From positions 1-21,796 of IMG/VR virus record IMGVR_UViG_3300048433_000683: a DNA stretch of 21,796 nucleotides; one strand, given 5' to 3'. The stretch is from a virus. Shown piece by piece: positions 1,430 through 21,796 of this stretch. The position numbers and the translations under genes were made by a program. The notes beneath the pieces are model-generated. The model was not told the origin of the DNA and did no database searches. It saw nothing but the letters and a program-made list of their open reading frames with translations. The stretch's first letter is position 1; the number at the start of each line of letters is the position of its first letter.

Positions 1430-1658
1430 GCAACAAGGGATCACTGAGCAACAGGTTGCAGATGCTATCAATGTAATCAATGACTGCTTAGGTAAAATCA
1501 TCAAACGTATTGAGGAAGTCGAGAAGTATGTGAGCGAGATACCCACACCAGACAAGACTTACTACAAACCAGAAGGGTATGATGATTATATGAATTTAAA
1601 AGAGAACTTTGATGAAGTTTATAAAAGAATAGGGGAGTTAGAAAATGGCAGGGTGTAA
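1419..1658 (+). CDS. Small coiled-coil-like protein, 79 aa
   Basis: A 79-residue charged protein of unknown function. Residues about 8-42 (EQQVADAINVINDCLGKIIK and onward) have hydrophobic residues at heptad-like spacing and should form one long helix or coiled coil. A Pro/Tyr/Gly linker follows (IPTPDKTYYKPEGYDDY), then a second helix, LKENFDEVYKRIGELEN. The AAGGA at 1405-1409 is a suitable ribosome binding site for the ATG at 1419. It overlaps the upstream gene by 11 bases and the downstream 1014-residue virion gene by 14 bases, so translation is probably coupled. The position suggests a small chaperone or accessory protein for the large structural protein, but that is inference. Confidence 0.7.
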   Translation: MTNEQQGITEQQVADAINVINDCLGKIIKRIEEVEKYVSEIPTPDKTYYKPEGYDDYMNLKENFDEVYKRIGELENGRV

Positions 1659-4689: not shown

Positions 4690-4691
4690 TT

Positions 4692-5264
4692 ATGGCAGCA
4701 GGAGCAGCAGGACTTTATCAGGGACCTTGTAGTGGTCATGGAACGGGAAGTGGGTCTACACACCATGCAGGACTAGGTGGATCTGTATTACCTGGTTGTA
4801 CGATGCCACCTCTAGACCCAAAAATCGTTCCTAAGACAGTGATGCTTATGAACGCAACTACACTGTGGCCACCTTTACTGCAAGCACCAGCAACTCCCTT
4901 AGGAGCAGCAAGAAATGTGTTTATCAATAAAATTATACCTATCGTAGATCAGGATATATTAACACCACATCCGACTCCAACTACGCATCAAGCGTGCTAT
5001 ACAGGTATCCCAAAAGGATGTCCCCCAGGTTGCGTGACAAATCCTGCTTTTTGGTGTACAATAGGCGTGGTAGCTGGACGTGAACCTGCTGTAGGACACT
5101 CTAGAAAGCACTTTGCAACTCAAAAGTCTGTATTCATTAATATGAAACGAGCATCTGTGTTTGGCGATCCTCTAGGGGATTTCAGTCCAGCTTTCCCTTG
5201 TTGTTCAGTAGTAACTGGGGCAAGTATCAACGTATTCATTGGAATGGCAACTGGAGGAATTTAA
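4692..5264 (+). CDS. 5.4: PAAR-motif spike-tip protein, gp5.4-like, 190 aa
   Basis: PAAR proteins form a sharp metal-stabilised cone on the tip of the central tail spike (T4 gp5.4; type VI secretion homologues). Here the hallmark V-F-I-N/G strands occur three times: NVFINK (75-80), SVFIN (146-150) and INVFIG (179-184). Between them are IVDQDILTPHPTPTTHQAC (84-102) and FGDPLGDFSPAFPCC (157-171), the usual place for His/Cys metal ligands; candidates are H93, H99, C102, H136, H140, C170 and C171. Eight Cys in 190 residues is high. At 190 residues it is about twice the size of a minimal PAAR domain; the first 70 residues are a Gly/Ala/Pro-rich extension beginning with QGPCSGHG, similar to the start of the upstream protein. 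T4 likewise has 5.4 shortly before gene 6. The ribosome binding site is weak and the start lies two bases after the previous stop. The family call is fairly firm; the ligand assignment is inference. Confidence 0.85.
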   Translation: MAAGAAGLYQGPCSGHGTGSGSTHHAGLGGSVLPGCTMPPLDPKIVPKTVMLMNATTLWPPLLQAPATPLGAARNVFINKIIPIVDQDILTPHPTPTTHQACYTGIPKGCPPGCVTNPAFWCTIGVVAGREPAVGHSRKHFATQKSVFINMKRASVFGDPLGDFSPAFPCCSVVTGASINVFIGMATGGI

Positions 5265-5443: not shown

Positions 5444-5863
5444 ATGGCGTTAAAGTCAATAGGTGGAAACACCTTTAAAAAATCTAGAAGTTTTAAAGAT
5501 GTTGCAGTCAACTTTTCTAAAAATCCTTTTACTGATGATCTCTCTGTGGTAAATAATGATAACTCAATCAAACAGGCAGTTAAAAATTTAATTTTAACTA
5601 GTCCTGGAGAAAAACCATTTCAACCCTTAGTGGGATCAGCAGTAAATCGTCTTTTGTTCGAACCTTTAGATGCTTTTACTGCTGATGCAATTGAGGATGA
5701 AATTCGTACTACTATAAACCAATATGAACCTAGAGTAGCACTCACAGAAGTGATTGTTGATCCAGTTTTTGATAGTAATAGATTAAATGTAACAATTGAA
5801 TATCAAATCGTTGGTTTGCCTATTGTTGAAACGATAGAATTTGTTTTACAGAGACCCGAATAA
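5444..5863 (+). CDS. 25: Baseplate wedge protein gp25-like, 139 aa
   Basis: T4 gp25 and its type VI counterpart TssE belong to a family in which the baseplate wedge protein primes tail sheath assembly next to gp6 and gp53. The core is visible here: SPGEKPFQPLVGSAVNRLLF (53-72) matches the family's G-E-x-P-F-x-P-x-x-G-S-x-x-x-x-L-L-F-E pattern, and the conserved EPR motif is present as YEPR (94-97), followed by the strand pair VALTEVIVDPVF and LNVTIEYQIVG. The length of 139 is close to T4 gp25 (132). The start at 5444 has AGAGAG directly upstream. It overlaps gp6 by one base (TAATG), the usual sign of coupled translation and of partners that assemble together. A late promoter motif lies just upstream. 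Confidence 0.95.
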   Translation: MALKSIGGNTFKKSRSFKDVAVNFSKNPFTDDLSVVNNDNSIKQAVKNLILTSPGEKPFQPLVGSAVNRLLFEPLDAFTADAIEDEIRTTINQYEPRVALTEVIVDPVFDSNRLNVTIEYQIVGLPIVETIEFVLQRPE

Positions 5864-7956
5864 TGCAACCAAACAATTTAACAGCATTAGATTTCGATGA
5901 CATTAGATCCTCGATTAAGTCATATTTAAGGACTCGTGACGAATTTACTGACTACGACTTTGATGGTTCATCATTGTCGTATCTTATTGATCTATTAGCG
6001 TATAATACATACTACACTTCATTTAATGCTAATATGGCATTAAATGAATCTTTCCTATCTTCAGCAACAGTAAGAGACAATGTTGTCAATATTGCTAAGT
6101 TATTGAATTATGTCCCTAGATCTATTAGGGCATCAAAAGCAATTGTTAGTTTTAAAGTAAAAACTACACAGTTAGAAGGTTCATATCCACAGTCAGTAAC
6201 TTTAAGGAAGGGTCCTGTAGCTACAGGATGTAATTATATTTGGAATACATTAACTGCAGTTACAGTTAACGTAGATCCTATTTCAGGAGAAGCAGATTTT
6301 TGTAATATTCCGATCTATGAGGGAACTATAGTTAAATTTTCTTATATTGTTAACACGTTTGCAAAACAAATATATAAGGTCCCTTCTGAGGATGTTGATA
6401 CTAGTACTTTAGCAGTTCAGGTAAAACCAAACGAATCATCTACTCAATTTGATATTTACACTCGTGCAACAACTGTTTCTACTGTAACCCCCACAACTCG
6501 AGCATATTTCTTATCTGAATCAGAAGATATGAGATATGAGATTAGATTTGGTGATGATAGTGTTGGTAGAGCAGTAAAAGACGGTGAGGTTATCGAACTT
6601 GAATATCTTGTTACTGCTGGAAAAGAAGCAAATGAATGTGGTAAGTTTGGTTTTATTGGAAAACTTATAGACAGTAATGGTCAGAATTTTGCCAGCGCAA
6701 TGATTAATGTTGTTACTAGAGCAAAATCTTTAGAAGGTGACTCTGCAGAAACAATTGAATCTATTAAGTATAATGCTCCTAGGTACTATTCAACTCAATA
6801 TAGAGCAGTGACTGCTCAGGATTATGCTATCTTAGCAAAAAATCTTTATGCAAATGCAGACTCTGTTGTTGCATATGGCGGAGATTCACTCAATCCTCCA
6901 GTATATGGAAAGGTGTATATTGTTATAAAAACAAAAACAGGTTCATTATTGAATGATGCAACAAAGAAAGAAATTTCAGGTCTTCTAAGACCATATGCAA
7001 TGGCATCTATAGATCCAATTATTATTGATCCTGAAGACATTTACATCGTTCCAAAAATCTTTGCATTGTATGATACAGGTTGTGGATCAAATCCTTCAGA
7101 AATCAAATCTGATGTTAGTGATGCCGTAATTAATTGGGCAACTCAGACCGAGATTAATAACTTCAATTCTACCTTTAGAGCACAATCACTTGAAAAAGCA
7201 ATTACACTTGCCAATAAGTGTATTACCGACGTTTCACTTCAAACAACTATTCTAAGGTATATCGAACCATCTTTAACAGACGAATCTAATACTTATTGTA
7301 TTTCTACAGGATCTCCACTCTATAATAGTGGTCCTAGTCTTGATACTTCTACAGGTGGTGATAATCAATGTAAGAAGGAACCTGTAGTAGTATCAGGAAC
7401 CTTTAGAACTGCTGATAGACCTGGTGTTGATCAACAATTTGAAGATGATGGATTCGGCAATCTGCTAATGTTCTATAATACAGGAACTCGTAAAATTTAT
7501 ACAGATACAAATGCAGGAACTGTTAATTATGAAACTGGAGAAGTTTGTTTTGGTCCAGTTAATATAATTTGGACTGGTGATGGTGGCGGTTTCCCACCAG
7601 ATGCAGTTATTATTACTAATGTTAGTACTGGAATTGGTACTGTTGTTGACTTCCCTCTAATTGCAGAAACAGCAGGCGGTGGTGGTGATGCAGGCGGTAC
7701 TGGTTTTGCTGATGGTGGAATTAAAATACCTATCATATTCATTCCTGCTAACAATTCTACAATTCCGTCAGCTTCTCCTGGAACTATCATTAATATTGTA
7801 AGTCCACCAATTACAATTTCTCCTGTAGGCACTCCAACGCCTGCCACTGTCCCACTAAATAGTTTGACGCCAACGGACTTCAATGTTAAACCCCCAGTGC
7901 TTGACATTCCTAATATATCAAATCAAGGTTCAATCAACGACACAAGTTGCTTCTAA
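5863..7956 (+). CDS. 6: Baseplate wedge subunit gp6-like (phage J family), 697 aa
   Basis: gp6 forms the inner ring of the T4 baseplate wedge as a dimer and binds gp25 and gp53; phage P2 J is the relative in simpler phages. The N-terminus LDFDDIRSSIKSYLRTRDEF followed by DFDGSSLSYLIDLLAYNTYY (about 31-50) is a typical gp6 start: a short helix, then D-x-D-G-S-x-x-x-x-L-I-D-L-L-A-Y-N. Further marks are SESEDMRYEIRFGDDSVGRA (about 219-238) and a region around YYSTQYRAVTAQDYAILAKN (about 308-327), both usual in the family. T4 gp6 is 660 residues; here the last 125 or so (from about 572) are a Gly-, Pro-, Ile- and Thr-rich tail with GGGGDAGG and repeated SPP/TPT words. The start overlaps the gp25 stop by one base, and the giant gene begins six bases after its TAA. 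Confidence 0.93.
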   Translation: MQPNNLTALDFDDIRSSIKSYLRTRDEFTDYDFDGSSLSYLIDLLAYNTYYTSFNANMALNESFLSSATVRDNVVNIAKLLNYVPRSIRASKAIVSFKVKTTQLEGSYPQSVTLRKGPVATGCNYIWNTLTAVTVNVDPISGEADFCNIPIYEGTIVKFSYIVNTFAKQIYKVPSEDVDTSTLAVQVKPNESSTQFDIYTRATTVSTVTPTTRAYFLSESEDMRYEIRFGDDSVGRAVKDGEVIELEYLVTAGKEANECGKFGFIGKLIDSNGQNFASAMINVVTRAKSLEGDSAETIESIKYNAPRYYSTQYRAVTAQDYAILAKNLYANADSVVAYGGDSLNPPVYGKVYIVIKTKTGSLLNDATKKEISGLLRPYAMASIDPIIIDPEDIYIVPKIFALYDTGCGSNPSEIKSDVSDAVINWATQTEINNFNSTFRAQSLEKAITLANKCITDVSLQTTILRYIEPSLTDESNTYCISTGSPLYNSGPSLDTSTGGDNQCKKEPVVVSGTFRTADRPGVDQQFEDDGFGNLLMFYNTGTRKIYTDTNAGTVNYETGEVCFGPVNIIWTGDGGGFPPDAVIITNVSTGIGTVVDFPLIAETAGGGGDAGGTGFADGGIKIPIIFIPANNSTIPSASPGTIINIVSPPITISPVGTPTPATVPLNSLTPTDFNVKPPVLDIPNISNQGSINDTSCF

Positions 7957-7962
7957 AGTTAG

Positions 7963-10900
7963 ATGAATACAAATAAGGTCTCCCAGTCGATTGCTACTCA
8001 GTCTCCTGAGTTCCTAAAAACAGATTACCCACTGTTTAATAAATTTATTGAGTACTATTATAGATCTCAAGAAAAAACTGGATTGGGTCAAAATATTGTT
8101 AATAACTTTTTGCAATATCTTGATATTGACAAATTGGATATTAGTATCTTAGGTGGTGCTACAAAAATTGTAGAACCTATTACTAAAACAACTGACACCA
8201 TTGTTGTTGAGAGTGTTGATAGTTTTATTGATACAAACGGATCAATTCTTATTGGCGATGAGGTAATCTACTATGAAAAAAGTACAACCTCTCCTAATAT
8301 TGCATTAAGTCCTGGTATTTCTTATGATCAAGTCAGGTTAAAGTGGACTGGACTTGCTCAACTTATCGATTCATTTGATGGAACAACTCGTTCTTTTCCA
8401 CTAACATCACAGTCTTCTCCTGTTAGTAGTCCATCTGCACAACATTTAATTGTTAGTGTTTATGGAGAAGTTTTAATTCCTACTGTGGATTATGTTATTG
8501 AAGGGACAAATATTGTATTTACAACTGCACCTAGAGTAAGAACTGCAGGTGATGATAATGTTAATACATTTATTACATTCCTTAGTGGTTTTGTTGAGAA
8601 TTCAATTGTTGATACTGACGATATTTCGGGTTCATTTGGTGAAAATAAGACAGAATTTAAAATTACTAGGAATGGTGTATCTTATGAACCAATTGCAGAT
8701 GAATATATTCTAGCGGTATATGATAATAAACTTCTTGAACCAAAAAAAGATTTCTTCATTGATGGAGATATTTTCATTTTTAATGAAGCACCTTTAAACG
8801 GCAGATTACTTTCTTTATATTCAATTGAAGCACCTATTCCCGATTTTGGTAGTGGTGCAGTTGGATATGCTCGTATTAGTGATACTGGTACTCTTACTGG
8901 AATCAATATTAATCAAACTGGATCTGGATATCAATATAAGTATCCTCCAAAAGTTTCAATCAATAGTTTGAACGGTAGAGGTGCTGCAGCATCTGCACTT
9001 GTAAATGGTATTAAGTCTGTAAGTCTACTTGATGGTGGTAGAGGATATAGTGATACTAATCCTCCAGAAGTCGTAATTCAAGCACCAACTACCACAGATT
9101 CACAAAGTGCTGAAATTAAAGCAGTAGTTGAAAATGGTTCTATAACCAGTCTTGAAATTGAAAATTCTGGAAGTGGATATACTTTTATCCCTCGAGTTTC
9201 ATTCAAACAACCTGGCGGGGCAAAGATTGCTCCAGTAACCATGTCCAACGGTAGTATTAGTGGAGGAGTTACTGTTTCTGAAGGTGGTTCTGGATACACC
9301 ACAGTGCCTCTAATCTATGTTGATGAACCAGTGGGTGAGAATGGTATTAAAGCGGTCTTACAGGCGGTTTTAACCGATGGTGTGGTTACATCTGTTAATG
9401 TTTTGAATGCTGGTCAAGGATACCTTACAACTCCTAGAATTGCTGTAATCAATCCAACTGGAGCTCAAGTTCTAGAAACTTTAGTTGACAGTGATGGAAG
9501 AGTTGTATCTGTTGAACTTTTAAGTGGTGGTGTTGGGTATGAAGATGTTCCCTCTGTTTATATTGTTGATAACAGAACAGATGCCAGTGGAACTGGAGCA
9601 ACAGCAACAGCATCGGTCTTTAATGGACAAATTACTGACATCAATATCACTAATTTTGGTTCTGGATATTCTGCAGTAAATCCTCCTACAATTATTATTC
9701 AAGATCCTCCTCAATCTAAAGCATCTGTTGAGATTGGATTGAATCAAATTACTGGTTTCTCTATTTCTAAAGTTGGATCTGGATATGATAAAGCACAATT
9801 TTTAGGATGTGCTAGAGCGGCAAGTGGTATTGTTAATTATACCGAAGTTGGTAATGCTGTATTTTCTAATAATACAGTTGCAGCAACTGCAGAAATTGAT
9901 ACTGAAGTAAAATGTCTAGACGCATTATTTGTCAAAAGATTACTTGACAAATATATTGATCAATTCCTTCCCGATGTTCCTACACTCGATTATACTAAAA
10001 TTGATGTAAGAAATGCAATTAAGTCTGTAAAAGATTTTTATTCCACTAAAGGTACATCTTTCAGTATATCCTATCTGTTTAAACTTCTTTATGGTGAAGA
10101 AGTTTCTGTTTCCTATCCTAAGGATCAAATCATCAAACCATCTGATGCCACTTGGTCTATTGATACGATTCTTCGCGCTACATTAGTTAGTGGAGATCCT
10201 GAAAATATTAAAGATGGATTATTAACACAAGATAATAATATTGCAGATCCTAATATTTCAGTAGCAACTGCTCTAATTGAAAATTTCATTTCTATTAAAA
10301 CATCTAATGTAGAACTTTTTGAACTTGTTCTTTCTGAAGAAACTATTCAAGGTAACTTTGTAGTTCCTTATAAGACGAAACTTGGTGAACCTCTTAATAC
10401 TACAGATAGTATTATTACTGTAGACTCTACTATTGGTTGGCCAGAAAGAAATGGTGAATTTTTAATTGGAAACTCTGAGTTAATTCAATATAAAGAGAAG
10501 TCTCTAAACCAATTTATTGAGTGTACTCGTTCTGTAAACGGTGTTGTTGAAGACTGGGATGCTGCTACAGAAGTAAACTCAAATCTTATTGTATACGTTA
10601 ATAAAGGAACATCTCTTGAAGTTGTTCTTAAAGTAGTTGGTATTGTTGATGCTCAAGAAACAACGTTAACAGATACTGGATCTTACTATCTTTCTGGAGA
10701 TAAACTATCGGTATCTAAACTTGGAGGAACTTCCAACAAACCAGAATTAACAACCTGGTTGTATAATGTTAAGAAACTATTACAAGTTGATACTATCACC
10801 TATGGTGGTATTAATAACACATTTGCAACAGTCACTTGTTCTAATAACCATGGTCTTTTGGTTGGGGATCAAGTTACTATTTACGGTGCGAATCCAATTG

Positions 10901-13900
10901 TTTATAACGGAACATTTGAAGTAACATCGAGAGATACTGAATCTGTTTTCCAATATCAATTGCCACAACCAGCAGAAGTAGTACCTCAGGGTAATATATT
11001 AGTCTCTGTTGACCTTAATAAAGGAAAATCTGATAATAGTGCAGTTTTTAATTCTATTGGTCCTTATACCACTAATATTCAGAATTCATTTTTCAATGAT
11101 AATTATGCATATGTTGCATCTACTGGTATTCCAAATTATAAGATCGGACCCTTCCCAGGATCTGCTCTTTTACCTGGAAACCAACGTAAACTGAATAGAT
11201 TTCCATTAGTACCCTCTACAATTTCAATTAAGAATGCTATTTCACCTGGTCCTATTGGAACTTGGATTAATGGAACATCAGTTTGGTCATATAAGTCAGA
11301 TATCACAAAAACTTTTGGACCAGTCACTTCAATCAATATCACAGATGCAGGATCTTCATATGATGCGGCATTCCCTCCAGTTATCACTATTTCTGGTGGT
11401 GGAGGAACAGATGCTACTGCAGCAGTAACTGTAAATGGTTCTATTACTGAAATTGTTGTAGATAATGGTGGATCTGGATATACTTCCTCACCACTTGTCT
11501 CTATTGTTGGTGGTAATGGATCTGGTGCTGCAGCAACTGCTATTGTTACTAAAGGTGTTGTTTCTAGTATCCTTATGAATACTAGTGGTACTGGATATAC
11601 CTCTCAACCATCTATTACTATTGTTGGTGGTGGTGGCACTGGCGCTACAGCAACTGCTTCCGTTAGAGGTGCAATTCAGTCTATTGCAGTAACTGATGGA
11701 GGTGCTTCATATACTTCTAAACCATCAGTTACATTGAGTTCTGGAACTGGTGCAGTTGCTCAAGCTATTGTAAGTAATGGTAGAATTATTTCTATTGCAA
11801 TTATTTCTGCAGGTGTCGGATATACTACAGCACCAGAAGTAACCATTCAAGGTGATGGTTTTGGTTCAGTTGCCCGTGCTACTATCGATACTGATGGTGA
11901 AAATGCTGGTAGGGTTACTAATATTGAAATCCTCAATAGAGGCATCAATTATGTTCAAGGAACAACTATTATCAATCTGACATCAGTTGGTACTGGAGCA
12001 ACCTTTAGTCCAAATATTTTTGAGTGGACTTATAATTTACAAGAGACTACAACTGTTGATGAGTCTAAAGGTTCGGTATTTGCTGGTTTTAATAATCAAT
12101 ATGGGGGAGAATATGCTCATATTTCCAACCCTCAAAAATTAAGATATATTCTTGGTGATAATCTATTTGAAAGTATCACTGGTGCTATCTTAGAGCAAGA
12201 AACTCAATTAGAACACTCGCCAATTATAGGTTGGGCATTTGATGGCAATCCCATTTATGGTCCTTATGGTTACTCAGATCCTACGGATCAGTCTTCGAAT
12301 ACTACTCGTTTGAATAGTTCATATCGATTAAAAACTAACCTAGTCTATGATGGGGTTTCAAATCCATATCCTGTTAGAACTGCTGGTCCTTTGCTTACCG
12401 AAGAAGTTGCAGGAAAATTTGTTGAAGACTATGAATATGCATTTGGTCTTGGAGATCTAGATCAATACAATGGTCGTTTCTGTAAAACTCCTGATTTTCC
12501 AGAGGGTAGATATTGCTACTTTACTACAGTTGATACTACCGAAGCAGGTAATCCAATATTCCCTTATGTTATTGGTCCAAGTTTTAATTCTATTGTAGAC
12601 TCTTGGAATTTGAATAAGGATGCAATCCAACAGAATATCCCAACAGGAGTTGTAAGATATCGTGATCCTTATGAGAATGTTGACATTGATGTTGAACGTG
12701 CTCCTAATGCATCGACAAATGCTTTAACTACAGAAGGTGGTGATATTATCCTGTTTGAAGTAGAAGATGAGAATAGAGATGGTATTATTAGTCAAGATGA
12801 AACTGACGATCCAGATCAACTCTTTGAGGAATCTCCTTTACAGTTATTTGATTATTTCCCATCGGTAAGATTTGATTCTAAAGTTGATATTGAAGTTGAA
12901 ACTACCACCAAGTTTGAAGATGCATCCGTAACTGGATTCATTATTGAAGATGCTGGTAAAAATTATCAAGTTGATGATATTTTAACTTTTGATAATACTG
13001 ATACTGATGGAATTGGTGCATCTGCTAGAGTTTCTAGAATTAAGGGTGAATCTATATCTTCTTATAATTTTGAAGTAGTTGAAGACAAATTCTATGGTGT
13101 ACTAACAACTACTAATCCTCATAATCTTGTTATTGAAGATACTGTTTATGTGGATTATACACCGATCATGGATAACACAAACAAACAGTTTGTTGTTAGA
13201 CAATTAAAAGGTGTTGAAGAACTTATTATTGAACAAAATGGATCTGGGTATGATGTTGATATTCCCCCAACGATCATTATTGATGGTGACGGCGATTCTG
13301 CAGAATTACAAGCAATTGTAAGTTCGGTTGGATCTATTGATACTGTCAATATTATTAATTCTGGTTCTGGATATGTTAATAACCCTCGTATCATTTTATC
13401 TCACCCTCAAGTTTTTAAAAAGGCAAATTATTATCTTTCCGTAATTGAAAATGAAAATTATGTAAAAGTTAATGATGTATTTGTTAATGATGATAAAGAG
13501 GTTTTCTTCTGTGGTAAAACTCTTGATAATAATAGTAACGAGGTTGCATTTGTCTCCAAGTTCTCTGAACTAGGTGTTAAAGAATGGGAAAAAACTCTTG
13601 AAAGTCAAGATGGAGAAACATATACAGAGTTTGTAAAACTAGATGTTAATGGAGATTTTATTTGGGTAGTTGGTCAAAATAAACCAAATTCTTCACTTCT
13701 TGCTGCATATAATCCTGATATTATCTTAGCAAAATATACACAAGCAATTGATGGATTAAGTGCTACCTTAAACTTCCAGAAAGGATATGCTGGTATTTCT
13801 GGTGCTACAAGATCTGATAATATCACTACTATCAAGAGATATTCAGATTCTCGTTATATTATCGGTGGTTTTACCAATACAAACTCTGCTAATCCACAAG

Positions 13901-16900
13901 ATGCTTTTATTGCATCTGTAGATGCATCTGGTACGTTTGCTGCAAAGAGAAAACTTGCATCGGTTAATGGATCTGAAAAGATTACCGATCTTATTGTTTT
14001 GGATGATGCAGTATACTTTGTCATGGAGACTTCTCCCACTGAGGGATCTTCTGATGTTAAAGTATCTTTTGGTAAAGTTCTTATTGGAACTTCTGTAATT
14101 ACTGTTGAATGGATTAAGGAGATTAATAATGTTACATATTCATTTGGAGATACTAGTTTAATTGTTGATGAGTTTAATGAGTTTTATATCACTTCAACGT
14201 TAGCACTCAAGTCCAATACTACTATAAAGGATAGTTTCTGGATTGGAAAACTTGATACTAATGGAGATCTCCTTTGGAACTATCGATATATTGCTCCTGT
14301 AGGAAATAATATTGAACTTGCTTCTAGAAGTAGTATTGATATTTTTGGAGATCTTAATATTGCGTATACAAGTACTAATAGTACAAGTGGACTAAAAACT
14401 GTTGATACTGCAAAAATTGGATATAATGGTATTCTCAAGAAACATACTAATAGTGAATTTAATGCAAATAACATTGAAGGTATCACAGTTAATGCCATCA
14501 CCGTAGATAATTCTGGTGATGTCTATGCATTTGGTCAAACTCAATGGAATAGAAATGAGTTTGTATTACCATTTACTACTGGTGCAACACAAGCAACTGA
14601 TATTACAGGTCACTACACACCTTCAATTGTTGAAACAGGGGATTCTGTAAGATTTTTAGCAGATTATGCATTCATTCAAGGATATCAAACTGCATCTCCA
14701 TCTAGTTGGGAAAATGCCACAGTAAAAATTCTTGGATCTGAACTTGGAACAAAACTGAATGATGATTGGACTCTTGAGTTCATGATCTATAAAAATGGAT
14801 CTGAATATCAGTCCTTCAGTCAAACACAATATACTTTGGTTAGTATTGGTGATGCTACTGATGCTACAGGTGGTCTCTGGTTATATTATGATGAAAGTAG
14901 TGGCAGACTAGAGTTAGTTGTTACTAATGACACCACGTCAATTAATTCTGCAGGAGGAGCAATACAGTCTACTCAGACAACAATGTATGCTGATAACTCT
15001 TGGCAATTTATTGGTATTAAGAAAGAAGGTAATGTATTTAAGGTATATGTAAATAGTACCGAAATTCTAACTGGAACTATCTCAGATACTATTTTTACCA
15101 ACAAAGATATTCATTTTGGTAATATTCCTGGTAGATCTACAACAACTGGTCAATTCCGTTCTAACGAGCAGTTCCAAGGATATATTGATACGGTCAGACT
15201 TAAAAATAGAGCTGTTGCGCCTACAGTTCCTTCTGATGTAACTACCATCCCTCCTGTAGGAGCATATGCTCTTGCATTGGATTGGGCAGATGATGCTTGG
15301 TTTGCTACTAACACAAGTCGCTATGATTATATCGATTATATTGGTTGGGGATTAAAAGTAGACAAAGACTCTGATACTGATAGACTTGGCGACAAAGGAA
15401 TTCTAAGCACTACAAATATTGGACTAGTCAGAACTGCAATAACTCCAGTAACTGGAGTTAGTATGACTGTTTCCTCTACTGGATTTGCTCTTGGAACTTC
15501 TGGATTCCAAGGATTGGATTTTGAAGATGCTACAACTACGATGCAGGAAGGAACTGAAACGTTAACATACAGTTCTGATATCTGGAGTTCCAGAACAGCA
15601 ACCGTTCCTTCTCCTGGATCTAAAAAACTTAAAGTATCTGCAGTTGTAAAAGATCGTTACTATATGAAAGTAACGGATACTGTTAAAATTGATAATATTC
15701 AAGAATTATCACTTAATCAAGATTTTCAAATTACTTTAGGATCTAAACTTGTATTGAATACAGATGCAGGATCGTTTATTAATAGTGGTTATGTTATTAA
15801 AACTGATACCACTAATAATAAAGTTTATGTTGCTGTAAATAATAATTCTTGGAGTGATGATCTTAATACAGGTTTATTGTCAACCGAACAATTTGATGAG
15901 AAAGATACTTATGGTATTATTGGAACAACTCCAAGTGATGTAAATGTAATTGAAAGATATGTATTTGGCGATATAGTCAATACTACTCCTGGTACTTTTG
16001 ATATAGACTTGGATGATTATAATCTAGATGGTACTGGTTATAATGCGGGTGGTGGACAAAATCTAGATTCATTTGCAAAATTCAAACCATTTGGTGCTGA
16101 TATTTACAGTGTACAAATTGTAGAAGTTTCTGGCAGCACTTCGTTTATTCCTGGATCAGTTGTAAGTATTACAGCATCTGATATTAGCTTCAATACTGCT
16201 AAAACTACTGCTCAAATTACTAATTTAACAGGTGTCACTAAAATTACTTTAGTTGCTACCTTAGATAAGGTATTGCAAGCAACAAGTGTTGTTAATACTG
16301 ATGAAGTTTACATCATCACATCTTCTAGACATTATCTTGATGTTGGTCATAATATTTTAGTTGATGGCAATCCTTCTCAAACTGCTGGTGGAACTGTATA
16401 CGATGAATATGATGGTTCTTTTACTGTTGATACTGTTGTAAGCGATAGAGAATTCGTTTACAAACTTCCTGCTGCTGCTCAAACCGATCCAGCACCAAAT
16501 GCAGCAAATGTTAGCATTTTCAGTAAATCTCCTGTCTTAAAAATGTATTATGGTCATCAGTATCTGTTTGATCTAAGTCACTCATCGATGCTTGGTGCAA
16601 ACCTGTCTTTCTCTAAAGATAATTTGTATAAACTTGAATATTCATTCAATTCTATTGAACGTATTGGTACTCCTGGTATCACTGGAGAAGGTCAACCAAC
16701 TCCTACAGTTAAGTTTAAAGTTGGTCAGGATACTGTTACTAATATCTCTTACTACTTTGATCCATCTAGAACGGGTGCAGATACACCTGTAGACCCCTCT
16801 AGTTATCTGGATATTGTTGATTCTCCATATGTTGGAACATTTACTATTAGTGAGGTTACTGGAGCAACAATTACAGTTGGTGCAAAAACTATGAAATTCC

Positions 16901-19900
16901 CTCTGTCTAATGAACCAGAAGGAGTTGCTACCATTACGAACACCAATTACATGACAAGTTCGAAAAAAGGTGTTGGTAGTATAGGTCAAATTAGATTAGT
17001 TAACTCTGGTGGATTTTATTCTAGATTGCCTATTGTAACAGGTATTGAGTCTTCTAGAAAAATTGAAAGAGCAGAGATCTCTGAACCTGGTACTGAATAT
17101 CAGGTTGGGACATATAACAGTGTTCCTATCAGTGGTGATGGTGAAGGTGGATTGGTAACAATTGTAGTCGCTAATGGACAAACTGATGAAGGTGTTACTA
17201 TTCCTGGTCAAATTCAACAGGTAACAATTACATCTCCTGGTAAGGGATACACTACTGCATTTATTGATATTGAATCCATTGATGGAATTCTTGGAGCTGG
17301 ACTGACTGGATCTGGTGCTGCAATCAACGTTGTTATCCCTCCATTTGGAACTGGTGCAGTAATCTTCACTAAAGGTACAAATGTTGGTAAGATTAAAAAA
17401 CTTAAGAATAATAACTTTGGTTATGATTATCCACATGACTATACGTTGCGCCCTGAAATCACTTTCCCAATCAACGCGCAATTAACATCTACTAGTATTC
17501 TGGATAGTATCACAGTTACTGATCCTGGTTCTGGTTACTCGCAAGCACCTGCTATCATTATTACTGGTGGTGGTGGATCTGGTGCTATTGCCGAAGCAAG
17601 TATTAGAAATGGAAGAATTGAGCAAATACTTATTAAAGATCCTGGTGCTGGTTATTCTTCTGCACCAACAGTATCTTTGAAATCTTCTTTCAACTATGTT
17701 GTAAACCTTGATTTGGGACTACTCCAATTTGCATTCCCACATGGAATTGTAAATGGTTCTGCAGTTACTCTTAATGTAGTTGATACTGGTGATGGTATAG
17801 AATTCCCACTCGCTTCTGGTGCTGTTGGTAGACTTAATGGAAACACTACTTATTATGCAATTACTGGTACAGCAAATTCCCTTGATGGAGATCAACTGAA
17901 ACTTGCTATCACACCAGCTAACGCTGAATTGGGTGATGCTATTACATTTGCTAATGCTGGAACGGGTAGACAGCAAGTATTGACAGAATCGTTTGGTGCA
18001 GCTGCAGAAGCAAATGTTATTACCTCGACCTTCTTAGAAGGTGAAATGGTTTACCAAGGAGATAGTTTAGAAAATGCAACTGCTACTGGATTTGTTTCTA
18101 CAAACCAAGGTTGGCAAGTTGGACCTAGAATTTTAAAAGTCGTTGACTACACGGGAGTTTTCTCAGAAAATCAAAAAGTTACTGGTGTAATTTCTAAGTC
18201 CTCTGGTGTTATTAGCGATCTTAATATTGCTAAAGGTGTTCTAGAGATTGGACCTATTACCAAGACAACGGGTCAATTCATTGATGATGTTGGAAAACCT
18301 TCTGAGATTATTCAAAAAATTCAAGACTCTTACTATTATCAAGATTTCTCATATGCAGTTAAGTCCTCGGTTTCTATTGATGATTGGAAAGATATTCTAA
18401 TTAAAAATGTTCACCCTGCATCATTTAAGGTTTTTGGTGAACTTAATTTGGGAGAGTATGGGTATACCGCAAATAGAGAAATTGATTTTGAATTAACTAA
18501 GTCTGTTGAACTCGCTAGAGAAGCAACTGTACCAAATATTCAAAACTTTGCTCTGGCGGAACCAATTTACTCTGAGTTCAATAATACTGAAGTTTTATTC
18601 CGTCAAAGAAGATTGACCTCTTCTGAGAATATCCTCACTTCCGTTGTTCAACGTCTTGATGATATGTCCAATTTATTTGATGGCGAAAGAACGCAATTCC
18701 CACTAACAGTTAATGGTGAAAATGTAATTGCTAACGCTAATCAACTTCTTGTTGTTCTAAATGGTGTTGCACAAACTCCAGATGCTTCCTTCGAAGTTCA
18801 AGGAGATTCAATTATTTTCTCAGAACCACCTTCACCTCCAGCAAGTGTTAAGTATGTGAGCGTAGGAATTCAGCAAATTGCAACTGTTGATTTGGAATTC
18901 TCTTTCACGAGCGGTATTTTCCCTAATGTCGGTAATACTTTAATTGGAATTACTTCTGGAGCAAGACTTACTGTCACTAATGTTATTGGTGATACTATTC
19001 GTGGATTTGTCACTGAAGGAACTTTTGTTAGTGGTGAGCAATGTCAAGTTGGTGCTACTGGATTCTCTGGAACTCTTCAAACTATTGATAGTGGTATCTA
19101 CAGCAATGGATTATTTGTTTTTAACGAACAAATTACAAATCTGGATGGAGATCTTGCAGTCGTAGAAACAATTAACCTTGAAACGGGTCAAGAAACTCCT
19201 ATTGCAAAACTTCGCTATGGTATTGGAGCTTCAACTACAAATGTTGAGGTAGTTTCTACAGCAGCAGGTGTTGATACACCAGTTCCTATTGGAACGTTTG
19301 TGGAGAATGATGATTATCAAATTGCCTCTGAAATTGTTACAGTTACCTCCGTAACCAATGGATCAGATTCGACAACTATTGTCGTAACTAGAGGACAACT
19401 TGGGACAGCAGCTACTTCTCATCAGGAAGACACTCCAATGTATTCTACTGATATTGAAGTTACCAATGATTTAACTTTAAGTAAGACTGCAGGAACATAT
19501 CAGTCCACACCTGGTCTCTTTAATATTCAACTGAATGATGTTATTATTGGTGCTCAATCTGGTGTTGTTGCTCGTATCACTTCTACTAGCGCATATCAGG
19601 ATCCTATAACTCAAGAGTTTATTGAACAGGTTAATATTTCATCTGGATCTTCTTTCTTTGGTCTTCTGTTCAACAGATTAACATCAATTAGTTATCCTAA
19701 TAAGATTATTGATGATATTTCCAATTCACAAGTAAGTATCGTTGATTTTACTGATAATGTAACTGCATTTAATGCAGATTTCCCTAATAATGAATCTATT
19801 AGTAATAATATTGTAATTTACGATAATGAAACTGGTGAATTTACTGATGATGAGTTTATCAGAAACTACCGTGTTCTTTATGGCGGTAATACTGGCGACT

Positions 19901-21796
19901 TTAGTGCCAATGAAAATATGGCAGTAAGAAAACTAACCTTTACTGATCTTGTTGGTGGTGGATTCTTCTCTAGTGGTCAAATTATCAGAACAGCAGATAC
20001 TAAGGCAGAAATTATTGGATATAGTCAAGCAAGAAATACACTTTATCTTGGTAAAATTGGTAGATCTCAATCTACAGGTCAAGACTATCATACTGCATCA
20101 TTTGTTGCAGGTGCTCAACTTAATACAGCAAACTCTAAGTTTGGTAGCGCATGTCTAGCACTCTCTAAGGGTACGTCAGCGCATAGTTTTGTAAGTGGTG
20201 TTGATGATGCGATTATTGCTGGCGGTGGCGCTACAGGGTCGTTTACTGCTGCTACAGGAACAACATATAACCCATTCACGGGTGATATGGTTATTACTAT
20301 CGGTACTCATACTCTTACAACATCAAATACAGTAACAATTGTTGATGATGGTATTGTATTTACTTGTGGTTCGGATAATAATACTAATAATTATGCGTAT
20401 CCTCGTGCTACCGATCCTGCATCTGGTTCTGCTCTCGCGATTACAGCAGAAACTGATACTACAATCACGGTAAACGTTGGTCCAGTACCTATTGATGAGT
20501 ATCTAACTATTCCAACTTCTACAGAGTTTGGATTTGCTTCTGGAGACTTTACTGTTGAAACCTGGATCAAACTGAACAGTGTTGCTGCTGGTGGTAAGAC
20601 TATTTTTGATATGAGATCTGGTGCAACGGAACTTGCTCCTTATCTGTATGTCGATGGTGCAAATATTAAGTATTACAATAATGGTTCTGTAACTATTACT
20701 GGCGCAACAACTCTTGTAGTTGATACCTGGTATCATGTTGCTATTTCTAGAAGTGGTACTGACACTAAGTTGTTCTTAAATGGCACTCAAGAGGGTGGTA
20801 CATACTCAGACGCTAGCAACTACGGTTCAACAAAACCAATTAGAATTGGTGCTGACTATGCAGGTTCTGCTGTTACTCCTGGATATTTTGACGACTTTAG
20901 AGTCTCTAACAGTGCTCGTTACACGGCAACGTTTACTGCTCCCACAGGTATGTTCCACGGTGATGCAAACACCAAACTCCTCCTTCACTTTGATGGAACA
21001 AACGGTCAAACATATACTCAAGATTGGTCTGGTACTGAGTCCTTTACTGATGGTGAAGAATTCAACAATGATGCAATTACTGGATCTACTAGACAATATG
21101 GTGGTTTACACCAGTTTGTAAGTGCTACAACAAACGCTATCACTATCGATAGTGCCAATAAGACTCCAACCGATGCAACTTATGATTCATCTACAGGTCT
21201 TCTTGTACTTACAATCGGGTCTCATAGTTATACAACTTCATCCACTCTTACTATTGCTGCAAACTCCCTGACATTTACTTGTGATAAGGATAACTATGTT
21301 ACAAATCATACATATCCACGTTCTACTGATCCGTCATTCGGTGTTACACTTGATGTAACGGCAGTAAGTGGAACTACAGTTACTGTAAATGTTGGGACAT
21401 CTCCTAGAGGATTTGCAAACAAAACCCACAGATACTATGATGCTGCTACTGCAGTTCTTAAGAATATCGATCTTCTCTCTGAAGAGGGTGATGCTGTTGC
21501 TACTGCAGCATCACCATATCAACTTGATTATAGTACTGCTGCTGCAGTATACGGTTCTAGCGATTCAGTTGCATATGATTACTTTGGATCTTCAGTTGCT
21601 GTTTCAGATGATGGAACAACGAATAAAATGGTTGTTGGTGCGTATCAAGATGATGATGATGCAGAGAATTCTGGATCTGCATATATCTTTGATCTAAATG
21701 GTGGAAGTCAGGTTAAGATAACTGCAGGTTCTTCAAATGCTGGACAAAATGATACTTTTGGTTATTCAGTTGCTGTAAACAATAATAAGGTTGCAG
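7963..21796 (+). CDS. Giant mosaic baseplate/fibre virion protein, at least 4611 aa (3' end outside window)
   Basis: The frame is open without a stop to the last base. With the six-base gap after gp6 and the Gly/Ser/Thr-rich modules, I infer a baseplate-anchored fibre or adhesin near 480-500 kDa or more. Residue order: 1-60 helical N-terminus (PEFLKTDYPLFNKFIEYYYR); 70-129 a V-x-S-x-x-x-F...E-V-I-Y-Y-E module, repeated at 807-876 and 3749-3828; 138-190 an F-D-G-x-x-x-x-F-P-L module, again near 3572-3623; 323-608 eight G-x-G-Y repeats; 651-746 a helical insert with KDFYSTKGTSFSISYLFKLL, typical of cyanophage structural proteins; 1133-1330 six repeats; 1418-1525 a YHYH-like domain; 1602-1613 an EF-hand-like loop; 1668-1804 three repeats; 1838-2200 a seven-bladed propeller; 2268-2416 a LamG-like fold; 2856-2940 a degenerate cupredoxin-like segment; 3019-3231 six repeats; 3450-3495 the IQDSYYYQDFSY module; 4102-4173 and 4407-4478 a duplicated module around a second LamG (4180-4348); FG-GAP blades from 4541. 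No transmembrane segment is evident. Module names rest on pattern recognition; the continuous frame is certain. Confidence 0.92.
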   Translation, partial: MNTNKVSQSIATQSPEFLKTDYPLFNKFIEYYYRSQEKTGLGQNIVNNFLQYLDIDKLDISILGGATKIVEPITKTTDTIVVESVDSFIDTNGSILIGDEVIYYEKSTTSPNIALSPGISYDQVRLKWTGLAQLIDSFDGTTRSFPLTSQSSPVSSPSAQHLIVSVYGEVLIPTVDYVIEGTNIVFTTAPRVRTAGDDNVNTFITFLSGFVENSIVDTDDISGSFGENKTEFKITRNGVSYEPIADEYILAVYDNKLLEPKKDFFIDGDIFIFNEAPLNGRLLSLYSIEAPIPDFGSGAVGYARISDTGTLTGININQTGSGYQYKYPPKVSINSLNGRGAAASALVNGIKSVSLLDGGRGYSDTNPPEVVIQAPTTTDSQSAEIKAVVENGSITSLEIENSGSGYTFIPRVSFKQPGGAKIAPVTMSNGSISGGVTVSEGGSGYTTVPLIYVDEPVGENGIKAVLQAVLTDGVVTSVNVLNAGQGYLTTPRIAVINPTGAQVLETLVDSDGRVVSVELLSGGVGYEDVPSVYIVDNRTDASGTGATATASVFNGQITDINITNFGSGYSAVNPPTIIIQDPPQSKASVEIGLNQITGFSISKVGSGYDKAQFLGCARAASGIVNYTEVGNAVFSNNTVAATAEIDTEVKCLDALFVKRLLDKYIDQFLPDVPTLDYTKIDVRNAIKSVKDFYSTKGTSFSISYLFKLLYGEEVSVSYPKDQIIKPSDATWSIDTILRATLVSGDPENIKDGLLTQDNNIADPNISVATALIENFISIKTSNVELFELVLSEETIQGNFVVPYKTKLGEPLNTTDSIITVDSTIGWPERNGEFLIGNSELIQYKEKSLNQFIECTRSVNGVVEDWDAATEVNSNLIVYVNKGTSLEVVLKVVGIVDAQETTLTDTGSYYLSGDKLSVSKLGGTSNKPELTTWLYNVKKLLQVDTITYGGINNTFATVTCSNNHGLLVGDQVTIYGANPIVYNGTFEVTSRDTESVFQYQLPQPAEVVPQGNILVSVDLNKGKSDNSAVFNSIGPYTTNIQNSFFNDNYAYVASTGIPNYKIGPFPGSALLPGNQRKLNRFPLVPSTISIKNAISPGPIGTWINGTSVWSYKSDITKTFGPVTSINITDAGSSYDAAFPPVITISGGGGTDATAAVTVNGSITEIVVDNGGSGYTSSPLVSIVGGNGSGAAATAIVTKGVVSSILMNTSGTGYTSQPSITIVGGGGTGATATASVRGAIQSIAVTDGGASYTSKPSVTLSSGTGAVAQAIVSNGRIISIAIISAGVGYTTAPEVTIQGDGFGSVARATIDTDGENAGRVTNIEILNRGINYVQGTTIINLTSVGTGATFSPNIFEWTYNLQETTTVDESKGSVFAGFNNQYGGEYAHISNPQKLRYILGDNLFESITGAILEQETQLEHSPIIGWAFDGNPIYGPYGYSDPTDQSSNTTRLNSSYRLKTNLVYDGVSNPYPVRTAGPLLTEEVAGKFVEDYEYAFGLGDLDQYNGRFCKTPDFPEGRYCYFTTVDTTEAGNPIFPYVIGPSFNSIVDSWNLNKDAIQQNIPTGVVRYRDPYENVDIDVERAPNASTNALTTEGGDIILFEVEDENRDGIISQDETDDPDQLFEESPLQLFDYFPSVRFDSKVDIEVETTTKFEDASVTGFIIEDAGKNYQVDDILTFDNTDTDGIGASARVSRIKGESISSYNFEVVEDKFYGVLTTTNPHNLVIEDTVYVDYTPIMDNTNKQFVVRQLKGVEELIIEQNGSGYDVDIPPTIIIDGDGDSAELQAIVSSVGSIDTVNIINSGSGYVNNPRIILSHPQVFKKANYYLSVIENENYVKVNDVFVNDDKEVFFCGKTLDNNSNEVAFVSKFSELGVKEWEKTLESQDGETYTEFVKLDVNGDFIWVVGQNKPNSSLLAAYNPDIILAKYTQAIDGLSATLNFQKGYAGISGATRSDNITTIKRYSDSRYIIGGFTNTNSANPQDAFIASVDASGTFAAKRKLASVNGSEKITDLIVLDDAVYFVMETSPTEGSSDVKVSFGKVLIGTSVITVEWIKEINNVTYSFGDTSLIVDEFNEFYITSTLALKSNTTIKDSFWIGKLDTNGDLLWNYRYIAPVGNNIELASRSSIDIFGDLNIAYTSTNSTSGLKTVDTAKIGYNGILKKHTNSEFNANNIEGITVNAITVDNSGDVYAFGQTQWNRNEFVLPFTTGATQATDITGHYTPSIVETGDSVRFLADYAFIQGYQTASPSSWENATVKILGSELGTKLNDDWTLEFMIYKNGSEYQSFSQTQYTLVSIGDATDATGGLWLYYDESSGRLELVVTNDTTSINSAGGAIQSTQTTMYADNSWQFIGIKKEGNVFKVYVNSTEILTGTISDTIFTNKDIHFGNIPGRSTTTGQFRSNEQFQGYIDTVRLKNRAVAPTVPSDVTTIPPVGAYALALDWADDAWFATNTSRYDYIDYIGWGLKVDKDSDTDRLGDKGILSTTNIGLVRTAITPVTGVSMTVSSTGFALGTSGFQGLDFEDATTTMQEGTETLTYSSDIWSSRTATVPSPGSKKLKVSAVVKDRYYMKVTDTVKIDNIQELSLNQDFQITLGSKLVLNTDAGSFINSGYVIKTDTTNNKVYVAVNNNSWSDDLNTGLLSTEQFDEKDTYGIIGTTPSDVNVIERYVFGDIVNTTPGTFDIDLDDYNLDGTGYNAGGGQNLDSFAKFKPFGADIYSVQIVEVSGSTSFIPGSVVSITASDISFNTAKTTAQITNLTGVTKITLVATLDKVLQATSVVNTDEVYIITSSRHYLDVGHNILVDGNPSQTAGGTVYDEYDGSFTVDTVVSDREFVYKLPAAAQTDPAPNAANVSIFSKSPVLKMYYGHQYLFDLSHSSMLGANLSFSKDNLYKLEYSFNSIERIGTPGITGEGQPTPTVKFKVGQDTVTNISYYFDPSRTGADTPVDPSSYLDIVDSPYVGTFTISEVTGATITVGAKTMKFPLSNEPEGVATITNTNYMTSSKKGVGSIGQIRLVNSGGFYSRLPIVTGIESSRKIERAEISEPGTEYQVGTYNSVPISGDGEGGLVTIVVANGQTDEGVTIPGQIQQVTITSPGKGYTTAFIDIESIDGILGAGLTGSGAAINVVIPPFGTGAVIFTKGTNVGKIKKLKNNNFGYDYPHDYTLRPEITFPINAQLTSTSILDSITVTDPGSGYSQAPAIIITGGGGSGAIAEASIRNGRIEQILIKDPGAGYSSAPTVSLKSSFNYVVNLDLGLLQFAFPHGIVNGSAVTLNVVDTGDGIEFPLASGAVGRLNGNTTYYAITGTANSLDGDQLKLAITPANAELGDAITFANAGTGRQQVLTESFGAAAEANVITSTFLEGEMVYQGDSLENATATGFVSTNQGWQVGPRILKVVDYTGVFSENQKVTGVISKSSGVISDLNIAKGVLEIGPITKTTGQFIDDVGKPSEIIQKIQDSYYYQDFSYAVKSSVSIDDWKDILIKNVHPASFKVFGELNLGEYGYTANREIDFELTKSVELAREATVPNIQNFALAEPIYSEFNNTEVLFRQRRLTSSENILTSVVQRLDDMSNLFDGERTQFPLTVNGENVIANANQLLVVLNGVAQTPDASFEVQGDSIIFSEPPSPPASVKYVSVGIQQIATVDLEFSFTSGIFPNVGNTLIGITSGARLTVTNVIGDTIRGFVTEGTFVSGEQCQVGATGFSGTLQTIDSGIYSNGLFVFNEQITNLDGDLAVVETINLETGQETPIAKLRYGIGASTTNVEVVSTAAGVDTPVPIGTFVENDDYQIASEIVTVTSVTNGSDSTTIVVTRGQLGTAATSHQEDTPMYSTDIEVTNDLTLSKTAGTYQSTPGLFNIQLNDVIIGAQSGVVARITSTSAYQDPITQEFIEQVNISSGSSFFGLLFNRLTSISYPNKIIDDISNSQVSIVDFTDNVTAFNADFPNNESISNNIVIYDNETGEFTDDEFIRNYRVLYGGNTGDFSANENMAVRKLTFTDLVGGGFFSSGQIIRTADTKAEIIGYSQARNTLYLGKIGRSQSTGQDYHTASFVAGAQLNTANSKFGSACLALSKGTSAHSFVSGVDDAIIAGGGATGSFTAATGTTYNPFTGDMVITIGTHTLTTSNTVTIVDDGIVFTCGSDNNTNNYAYPRATDPASGSALAITAETDTTITVNVGPVPIDEYLTIPTSTEFGFASGDFTVETWIKLNSVAAGGKTIFDMRSGATELAPYLYVDGANIKYYNNGSVTITGATTLVVDTWYHVAISRSGTDTKLFLNGTQEGGTYSDASNYGSTKPIRIGADYAGSAVTPGYFDDFRVSNSARYTATFTAPTGMFHGDANTKLLLHFDGTNGQTYTQDWSGTESFTDGEEFNNDAITGSTRQYGGLHQFVSATTNAITIDSANKTPTDATYDSSTGLLVLTIGSHSYTTSSTLTIAANSLTFTCDKDNYVTNHTYPRSTDPSFGVTLDVTAVSGTTVTVNVGTSPRGFANKTHRYYDAATAVLKNIDLLSEEGDAVATAASPYQLDYSTAAAVYGSSDSVAYDYFGSSVAVSDDGTTNKMVVGAYQDDDDAENSGSAYIFDLNGGSQVKITAGSSNAGQNDTFGYSVAVNNNKVA
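8860..9830 (+). repeat. G-x-G-Y beta repeat block 1 (8 copies)
   Basis: Eight copies of a unit ending in (G/S)-G-x-G-Y followed by about 39-44 residues with V-x-V strands and an N-G-x-(I/V)-x-x-(I/V) strand. The key Tyr codons are at 8929, 9046, 9178, 9295, 9421, 9538, 9667 and 9784. Intervals are 117, 132, 117, 126, 117, 129 and 117 bases, a strict short/long alternation that suggests a two-repeat ancestral unit. Confidence 0.85.
11330..11970 (+). repeat. G-x-G-Y beta repeat block 2 (6 copies)
   Basis: Six copies with key Tyr codons at 11359, 11479, 11596, 11710, 11821 and 11950, intervals of 111-129 bases. Copies two and three also agree at the DNA level: the stretch starting CTATTGTTGGTGGT at 11501 recurs at 11618 (117 bases on) with few differences over about 45 bases, pointing to recent duplication or gene conversion. 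The third and fourth copies are rich in GGGGTGATATA-like glycine/alanine loops. Confidence 0.85.
12920..13410 (+). repeat. G-x-G-Y beta repeat block 3 (3 copies)
   Basis: Tyr codons at 12964 (AGKNY, divergent), 13249 (GSGY) and 13372 (GSGY). The last two are 123 bases apart. The first two are separated by an inserted H-x-L-type module (about 13096-13208). The block leads directly into the beta-propeller. Confidence 0.7.
16985..17700 (+). repeat. G-x-G-Y beta repeat block 4 (6 copies, PG-x-GY variant)
   Basis: Tyr codons at 17017, 17098, 17248, 17422, 17536 and 17653. Four of the six carry P-G before the Tyr turn (PGTEY, PGKGY, PGSGY, PGAGY), unlike the G-G or S-G of blocks 1 and 2, so this block forms its own subfamily. 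Spacing is irregular except for the last two intervals (114 and 117 bases). Confidence 0.75.
20266..20481 (+). repeat. 72-residue fibre module, copy 1
   Basis: Runs from YNPFTGDMVITIGTHTLTTS through FTCGSDNNTNNYAYPRATDP to TTITVNVG. Copy 2 at 21181-21396 has exactly the same length and the same landmark words (TIG-S/T-H, TTS-x-T, FTC-x-x-D/N-N, YPR-x-TDP, TVNVG). The second LamG-like domain sits between the two copies. I recall this module from several phage structural proteins of marine myoviruses. Confidence 0.8.
21181..21396 (+). repeat. 72-residue fibre module, copy 2
   Basis: Runs from YDSSTGLLVLTIGSHSYTTS through FTCDKDNYVTNHTYPRSTDP to TTVTVNVG. Same length as copy 1 at 20266-20481, with landmark words in register, so it is a clean tandem-type duplication interrupted by a LamG-like domain. 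FG-GAP blades begin about 190 bases after it. Confidence 0.8.

Follow-up and report, generated by a model that had tools for sequence, protein, structure and literature searches.

A giant gene following gp6 in a marine cyanophage as the probable counterpart of T4 gene 7, with surface-binding-type domains in three slots

In Vibrio phage XM1, each baseplate wedge consists of one copy of gp17, the orthologue of T4 gp7, and two copies of gp16, and the 12 tail spikes attach via gp17, whose regions 80–106 and 201–242 are embedded in the spike density (PMC10457771; published reports are cited throughout from parts of their text). In Anabaena phage A-1(L), a C-terminal loop of the wedge protein gp32 helps to hold the long fibre (PMC10966104). 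As far as these accounts go, both an internal region and the C terminus of a wedge protein can thus already face fibres. Host recognition by marine T4-like cyanophages is poorly known, and gp7 has been said to be absent from cyano- and pelagimyophages, apparently substituted by VrlC (PMC7029224), and been counted among the non-cyanophage core genes (PMC3037559). Here we analyse a giant gene in a viral DNA stretch of 21,796 nucleotides, positions 1 to 21,796 of IMG/VR record IMGVR_UViG_3300048433_000683 (the window). We argue that the gene probably corresponds to T4 gene 7, whose product is the third subunit of the (gp6)2-gp7 wedge, but has expanded to 7,027 residues and bears surface-binding-type domains in three slots, serving as a putative covalent adhesin platform.

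The gene starts with an ATG at position 7963 and, on the + strand like all features given below, runs stop-free for 4,611 codons to position 21795 and off the contig end (feature 7963–21796, the 5′ part of the gene). A stop-free run of this length has a chance probability of ~10^-147 at the composition of the window, the remaining five frames of the region contain 171–637 stops each, and the guanine–cytosine content of the frame is 0.17 at third codon positions versus 0.48 and 0.43 at the others. Window positions 340–21796 are matched gap-free over 21,457 bases by another IMG/VR record, 3300017755_000007 (55,325 bases), at 99.991% identity, with about two differences; in that record the gene continues to a stop after 7,027 codons, and a 408-residue frame follows. 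The computed protein has a mass of 751 kDa and an isoelectric point of 4.4, and residue numbers below refer to it. Frame, composition, and the completing record thus bear out the original prediction, made from the window sequence alone, of a single giant open frame of at least 4,611 codons over 13.8 kb. An assembly artefact or chimera is hardly conceivable: nothing beyond the contig end falling inside the gene speaks for it, cultured phages hold collinear orthologues, and the near-identical separate record, gap-free across 21.4 kb, rules out a chimera or missed stop. A repeat check of the window DNA found no tandem repeats.

The giant gene directly follows gp6 (5863–7956). We found the same order after gp6 in P-SSM7, ACG-2014a, Syn19, S-PM2, P-SSM2, S-SM2, S-CRM01, phiM7, S-SZBM1, and T4, as read in relatives with annotation, some of which name the preceding gene only "baseplate wedge subunit". 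The comparison with the gene after gp6 in T4-like cyanophages, proposed with the original prediction, thus finds orthologues holding the same place.

Three segments of the giant protein appear to correspond, in order, to residues 645–897 of T4 gp7, segment M directly and segments C and N via profiles and bridge phages. Segment N (residues 3–56; 7969–8130) consists of predicted helices, a candidate for the helix-turn-helix at the N terminus of the core bundle, and relates to gp7 ~645–690 via bridge phages only, as judged from BLAST, profiles, and a model. Segment M (residues 650–732; 9910–10158), with the motif DFYxxKG...LFKxLYxE, relates to gp7 724–759 on the evidence of a Pfam match (PF23786, Baseplate_wedge, residues 677–723), profiles, and a PDB search. 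Segment C (residues 3451–3496; 18313–18450), with the motif DSYYYQDFSY..KS...W....HPASF, relates to gp7 ~850–897 weakly in direct comparison and clearly via a bridge phage. For gp7-type proteins in general, the motifs of M and C take the forms DFYxxKG...LFxxLyxExV and ..S..W....HPxxF.

Short relatives occupy the same locus in Stenotrophomonas phage Mendera (503 residues), Desulfovibrio phage 7757 (586), Caulobacter phage Cr30 (767), Methylophilales phage Melnitz-2 (896), and Sinorhizobium phage phiM7 (1,006). All five match the giant protein by BLAST within residues 630–800 and 3397–3517; matches to its N segment were obtained for Mendera (E 0.006), Cr30 (E 0.001), and Melnitz-2 (E 5e-7) and were missing for phiM7 and the Desulfovibrio phage. 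A profile of four bridge phages matches the N segment with P 97.2%, and the bridge profile matches T4 with P 98%. The Desulfovibrio phage protein aligns both to T4 gp7 645–888 (E ~5e-9) and to residues 681–732 and 3451–3496 of the giant.

Profile–profile comparisons with T4-type gp7 (hhalign) placed segment M at 724–759 (P 93.8%, E 1.8e-7) and, weakly, segment C at 866–897 (P 36.9%) when cyanophage profiles were used alone; with bridge phages included, the values were P 97.7% (E 2e-12) for M and P 63.4% (E 7e-5) for C. The controls T4 gp5, gp6, gp8, gp9, gp10, and gp53 reached P ≤0.3 with cyanophage-only profiles and ≤1.9% with bridge phages (≤0.4 for core M). Searched against all PDB sequences, core M retrieved two gp7 entries (5hx2, E 4e-8; 9f4a, E 3e-7) and nothing else below E 0.3. 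Alignment A1 comprised 36 other sequences from 82 loci: 53 were tested for stops, thinning at 93% identity left 37, one identical sequence (L004) and two with a long insertion were then excluded, and two distant loci were added. Alignment A2 comprised 34 of 75 loci (52 stop-tested, thinned at 95%).

When the cores were placed by best local alignment, M came before C in all 28 proteins, which range from 503 to 7,447 residues, and both M and C scored above the best shuffle in 22 of them. A placement of segment N at 33–59 of T4 gp7 by the same approach was rejected as spurious, the match of N to T4 being via profiles. The M–C gap measures ~100 residues in T4-type gp7, 122 in the Desulfovibrio phage, 405 in Melnitz-2, 1,102 in S-CRM01, 1,601 in S-PM2, 2,233–2,253 in S-SM2 and P-SSM2, and 2,725–2,821 in 13 giants above 6,000 residues. 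The N–M gap is 27–40 residues in five short proteins, ~130 in S-CRM01, S-PM2, S-SM2, and P-SSM2, and 624–632 in the giants, and 21 to 3,957 residues follow C across the placed proteins. As all three lengths vary, growth of the gene came about through insertions at three sites and not at one end only. In the giant, the slots hold ~625 residues between N and M (slot 1), ~2,730 between M and C (slot 2), and ~3,530 after C (slot 3). T4 gp7 has its domain V (PF21427, residues 766–861) between M and C and its domain VI (residues 920–1012) after C. The gp7-type proteins of S-PM2, S-SM2, and P-SSM2 (3,048, 4,156, and 5,195 residues) each have a YHYH-related stretch between M and C.

Several results weigh against the assignment to gp7. 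In direct comparison with T4 gp7, core N stays below significance and its pairwise score falls below the best of 200 shuffles; core C, with a pairwise score of 53, does no better than the top one of its 200 shuffles, which it equals, and its PDB search returned gp7 first and in the expected place at only E 0.31. In six of the 28 placed proteins (five T4-type proteins and that of Rhizobium phage RL38J1), at least one core score was not above shuffles. The T4-subfamily domains PF21427, PF21428, and PF21456 (Gp7_5th, Gp7_helical, and Gp7_6th), which T4 gp7 itself matches, were not listed for the giant at E ≤0.1, and we do not claim it as a T4-subfamily gp7. P2 gpI, regarded as a minimal gp7 and compared because of the core-M motif, gave no match to the cores as a single sequence (hhalign P ≤0.2), and no link to it is claimed. 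The model of residues 1–799 is poor in cores N and M (block predicted local distance difference test scores, pLDDT, mostly 30–57; N helices <50), making superposition on T4 gp7 impossible. Structure searches with this model brought up small beta domains as well as various phage proteins, but no T4 gp7 among the matches listed, a result uninformative either way. Finally, that region 80–106 of XM1 gp17 occupies the same place as slot 2 is no more than a presumption.

We nevertheless favour a gp7-type scaffold, which, judged from sequence, contradicts the published statement that cyanophages lack gp7. That gp7 is absent from these phages and replaced by VrlC, as stated in PMC7029224, which would make the giant an unrelated structural protein, appears very improbable in view of the gp7-type core found in the gene. 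A gp7-type gene and a VrlC-labelled gene also coexist in phiM7 and S-SM2. Mendera likewise has a gp7-type gene together with one labelled DUF4815/virulence-associated, DUF4815 presumably being VrlC. Some GenBank records, e.g., that of P-SSM2, already call the gene gp7. In the open-access literature, as far as its text was available (subscription papers being outside its scope), we found no description of a split gp7 core or of slots, which is weak evidence of novelty.

The original prediction had placed a baseplate-type N terminus in front of a series of surface-binding folds. Baseplate-type sequence is indeed found there; it is, however, no mere N-terminal anchor, as the gp7 core is split in three with folds between and after the pieces. 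Slot 1 holds two small beta domains (residues 126–210 and 214–291; 8338–8835), recognised by modelling and structure comparison, the second of which is similar, at a middling score, to tailspike domains and to the T7 gp17 N-terminal domain (VIA Z 7.4, 2.0–2.1 Å over 64–66 residues). They are followed by G-x-G-Y beta repeats (residues ~300–612; 8860–9798) defined by motif positions and a model with pLDDT mostly 80–93. Motif positions give a second such block in slot 2 (residues ~1130–1300; 11350–11862), and the full protein has 18 motifs of this type by one pattern.

Slot 2 continues with a YHYH domain (PF14240, residues 1378–1526; 12094–12540; E 8e-31, 108 bits versus a cut-off of 25), a beta propeller (residues 1822–2195; 13426–14547), and a LamG-like domain (PF02210, residues 2303–2415; 14869–15207; E 2.5e-6). 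An AlphaFold2 model of residues 1781–2416, built from 35 sequences, has a mean pLDDT of 81 and shows the propeller with ~27 strands. Its best structural match is CylK (Z ~35, 339–345 residues, 3.5 Å), followed by Sec12, WD40, and integrin propellers (Z ~25–26); we take the matching structures to have seven blades. Trans-sialidases, the first Foldseek rows for this model, were rejected with a root mean square deviation >20 Å, whereas the CylK rows were clean. CylK, the closest solved structure (Z 35 versus 26 for the next), is an alkylating enzyme from Cylindospermum.

Slot 3 contains a LamG_3 domain (PF13385, residues 4179–4319; 20497–20919; E 1e-24), two copies of a spacer module with the motif YPRxTDP at residues 4146 (20233–20487) and 4451 (21100–21357), both with approximate limits, and the start of a first FG-GAP cassette (21460–21796; residues ~4500–4900, completed only in the longer record), with Pfam FG-GAP matches from residue 4533. 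The beta repeats, YHYH-like domain, two LamG-like folds, and FG-GAP blades of the original prediction were all recovered, as was its seven-bladed propeller, with the blade count presumed.

Two of the slot 2 domains suggest that the giant might instead be an envelope-processing enzyme, its YHYH domain (a predicted metal-dependent hydrolase) or its propeller degrading cell-surface material at entry. For YHYH domains, a Zn-binding hydrolase has been predicted (PMC7824862). Among 82 relatives of the domain, H41 is kept in 78, D50 in 82, D123 in 81, N126 in 81, and R128 in 80, counts to be read with the search patterns themselves including some of these residues. The relatives comprise 80 loci, the best of 467 found with phage-derived patterns, and two plasmid genes; some sit in phage-like contigs, and the motif could not be read in two. 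The best structural match of the propeller is likewise an enzyme, but likeness of fold shows no activity, and the eponymous motif reads YCYF in the giant and YHYH in none of the 82 relatives. We judge an enzymatic role clearly unlikely. The motif does not define this branch, in which the domain is filed by profile only, and a loss of catalysis, suspected from YCYF, was dropped for the same reason.

The conservation profile across 13 orthologues, one of them truncated, separates a constant from a variable part. Tiles covering residues 1–4500 are present in all 13 with 51–91% mean identity, and those covering 6401–7000 in 12 or 13, whereas tiles 4501–4900 and 5901–6200 are matched in only five; four of the five orthologues matched by tiles 5901–6200 match there only with their version of the other cassette. 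These tiles coincide with the FG-GAP repeats: an initial blade pattern was too strict and was replaced by Pfam on pieces, which gave nine FG-GAP stretches, five in residues 4480–4910 and four in residues 5860–6260, and none between the cassettes or after the second in the pieces scanned. Of the 12 complete orthologues whose junctions were read, 3300020457_000035 alone has cassette 2 (residues ~5866–6250), which is cleanly missing from the other 11, the flanks joining within ~30 residues. Five of the 12 contain cassette 1, and in seven it is missing or replaced, not always cleanly. The spacer module has a third copy at residue 5053, and orthologues have 0–8 copies by the strict motif. Most of the variable part of the giant lies past the window end.

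Since the domains within residues 1–4500 (YHYH, propeller, and both LamG) are present in every orthologue, they are unlikely to be what changes host specificity. The likeliest candidates would be the pair of FG-GAP cassettes in slot 3 rather than this conserved block, while general adhesion, spacing, or envelope processing seems the more likely role of the conserved part in slot 2. One could go further and see in the giant a Kyanoviridae wedge scaffold turned host-recognition organ, in which the gp7 slots are fixed and whole FG-GAP propellers are exchanged in the last slot, in a region with repeated spacer modules of ~85 residues, so that host range could shift through swaps within a single baseplate gene instead of changes in fibre genes. 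This extension we put forward tentatively, with somewhat less than even expectation.

The same conservation can be read as the mark of a structural skirt whose inserts mainly make the baseplate more stable or wider and set the spacing of the true fibres, leaving recognition to other virion proteins such as gp9-linked fibres or a YadA-domain protein. A stretch of 4,500 residues present in 13 of 13 orthologues is unlike an arms-race recognition surface, and the repeats and small beta domain resemble connectors. Adaptation of S-TIM4 in experimental evolution (20 mutated genes) also pointed to a different adhesin, the adhesion-type example in the text being ORF108 (YadA) and not the giant gene (PMC6224464), and the literature surveyed, seen in part, held no binding or host-range experiments on the giant protein; both speak against an adhesin. 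A pure scaffold, however, leaves unexplained why the FG-GAP cassettes vary between relatives. LamG, FG-GAP, and propeller folds, moreover, are commonly binding folds. On balance, we find the skirt doubtful, though it deserves serious consideration.

Extreme chain length raises the further question of whether the 751-kDa product is a polyprotein, cut in assembly into a gp7 core and separate adhesin proteins. The repeated spacer modules might conceivably serve as processing sites. The core, however, is split by the insert, and with a cut in slot 2 the wedge protein itself would come apart; the orthologue S-SZBM1_208 was moreover listed as a single entry of 724 kDa, with 71 peptides (PMC9146016), an observation still compatible with cleavage. 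Processing of this kind seems to us quite improbable.

If the giant is instead an intact gp7 counterpart, cores N, M, and C, kept in the T4 order, would form the wedge part beside the gp6 dimer, with one copy per wedge and six per virion, ~4.5 MDa in total. The beta repeats, YHYH domain, propellers, and LamG domains would be held around the baseplate, where the slot domains could touch the cell envelope and, as covalent parts of the wedge, take the role that attached spikes or fibres have in simpler phages, the contact being passed through the wedge to sheath contraction. Of the "modular virion adhesin" originally predicted, the giant frame of a virion-protein family and its listed folds are real, whereas adhesion and host attachment are what we infer.

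The protein is a member of an already known cyanophage virion-protein family, PHROG_701, as judged from its score of 7,644 bits, with the best stretch aligning residues 1–4078 to 1–4076 of 6136. A DNA search with the window matched 214 phage records, all named Synechococcus, Prochlorococcus, or cyanophage, with P-SSM7 the best, and 475 phage records contain relatives of the first 799 residues, whose names among the matches listed include hypothetical protein, structural protein, and baseplate wedge protein or initiator. Members of the family are named "structural protein" or sometimes gp7 or baseplate wedge initiator. A query with S-CRM01 in IMG/VR found only two loci. Orthologues, rather than the protein of the window itself, have been detected in virions, as the original prediction had proposed to check: S-SZBM1_208, a "baseplate wedge initiator" of 6,619 residues, was found in the virion proteome with 13.5% coverage (PMC9146016), and T4-GC969, the cluster to which Syn19_088 belongs, has been reported in S-SM1 virions (PMC3037559). 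With these virion orthologues and the 214 DNA-level and 475 protein-level records, the earlier description of an undescribed host-attachment apparatus does not hold; new here are the identification of the gp7 scaffold and of the exchangeable cassettes.

Upstream of the giant gene, the window encodes a baseplate wedge protein of phrog_719 (1,014 residues; 1645–4689; E 1.7e-286), a PAAR-type protein (190 residues; 4692–5264; phrog_281, E 1.5e-29), a gp25-type wedge protein (139 residues; 5444–5863; phrog_261, E 4e-67), and gp6 (697 residues; phrog_219, E 5e-220), the names gp25 and gp6 being taken from P-SSM7. The phrog_719 protein has G-x-G-Y type repeats too and cross-matches some PHROGs of the giant. 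The repeats of the giant itself cause PHROG matches with unrelated names, such as phrog_460 "head closure Hc2", an annotation hazard, and matched stretches in other phages are labelled "gp8 baseplate wedge protein" and "gp14 neck protein".

Two contigs filed in bacterial assemblies resemble the locus. Contig QCLS01000003.1 (189 kb) of Prochlorococcus sp. AG-418-C09 has a YHYH frame with a gp6-like gene, so called by position (34% identity), a few kb away, and is probably a phage genome sequenced together with its host cell. Contig NZ_RMVE01000006.1 (188 kb) of the flavobacterial isolate Nonlabens xiamenensis 1Q3 has a 61% identical YHYH region and a gp6-like gene, again by position (44% identity), and is either a Nonlabens phage or a contaminant.

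A gp7 counterpart of this kind would supply the missing part of the cyanophage baseplate model and help to account for the many differing annotations of the gene. The three slots indicate where adhesins should be sought, and the two FG-GAP cassettes are predicted to track host range.

The closest described relative, PSSM7_090 of P-SSM7 (7,124 residues, "structural protein", PHROG_701), shares the locus between gp6 and gp9 and is 77% identical across residues 1–4508 and 71% across the last ~780. It differs in having ~760 other residues, without a Pfam match, in the place of cassette 1 and in lacking cassette 2. The virion-detected S-SZBM1_208 adjoins a pair of genes that bear the name baseplate wedge subunit and stand where gp6 and gp25 are expected; it has the same position and core order, with 46%, 43%, and 42% identity over blocks of 2,247, 1,254, and 682 residues; the regions between these blocks have diverged. 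T4 gp7 (1,032 residues) shares the place after gp6 and, in order, the core motifs DFYSTKG and HPxxF. In it, ~640 residues precede the core, M and C lie ~100 residues apart, and ~144 residues follow C, whereas the giant has none before the core and ~625, ~2,730, and ~3,530 residues in its slots, so that a T4 baseplate part of ~1,000 residues would have as its counterpart a 7,000-residue multidomain giant in a marine cyanobacterial virus. XM1 gp17 (242 residues) is, as reported, a gp7 orthologue with two spike-holding regions, its spikes being separate proteins; by analogy, the cyanophage gp7 may carry its own adhesins at the places where other wedge proteins hold fibres.

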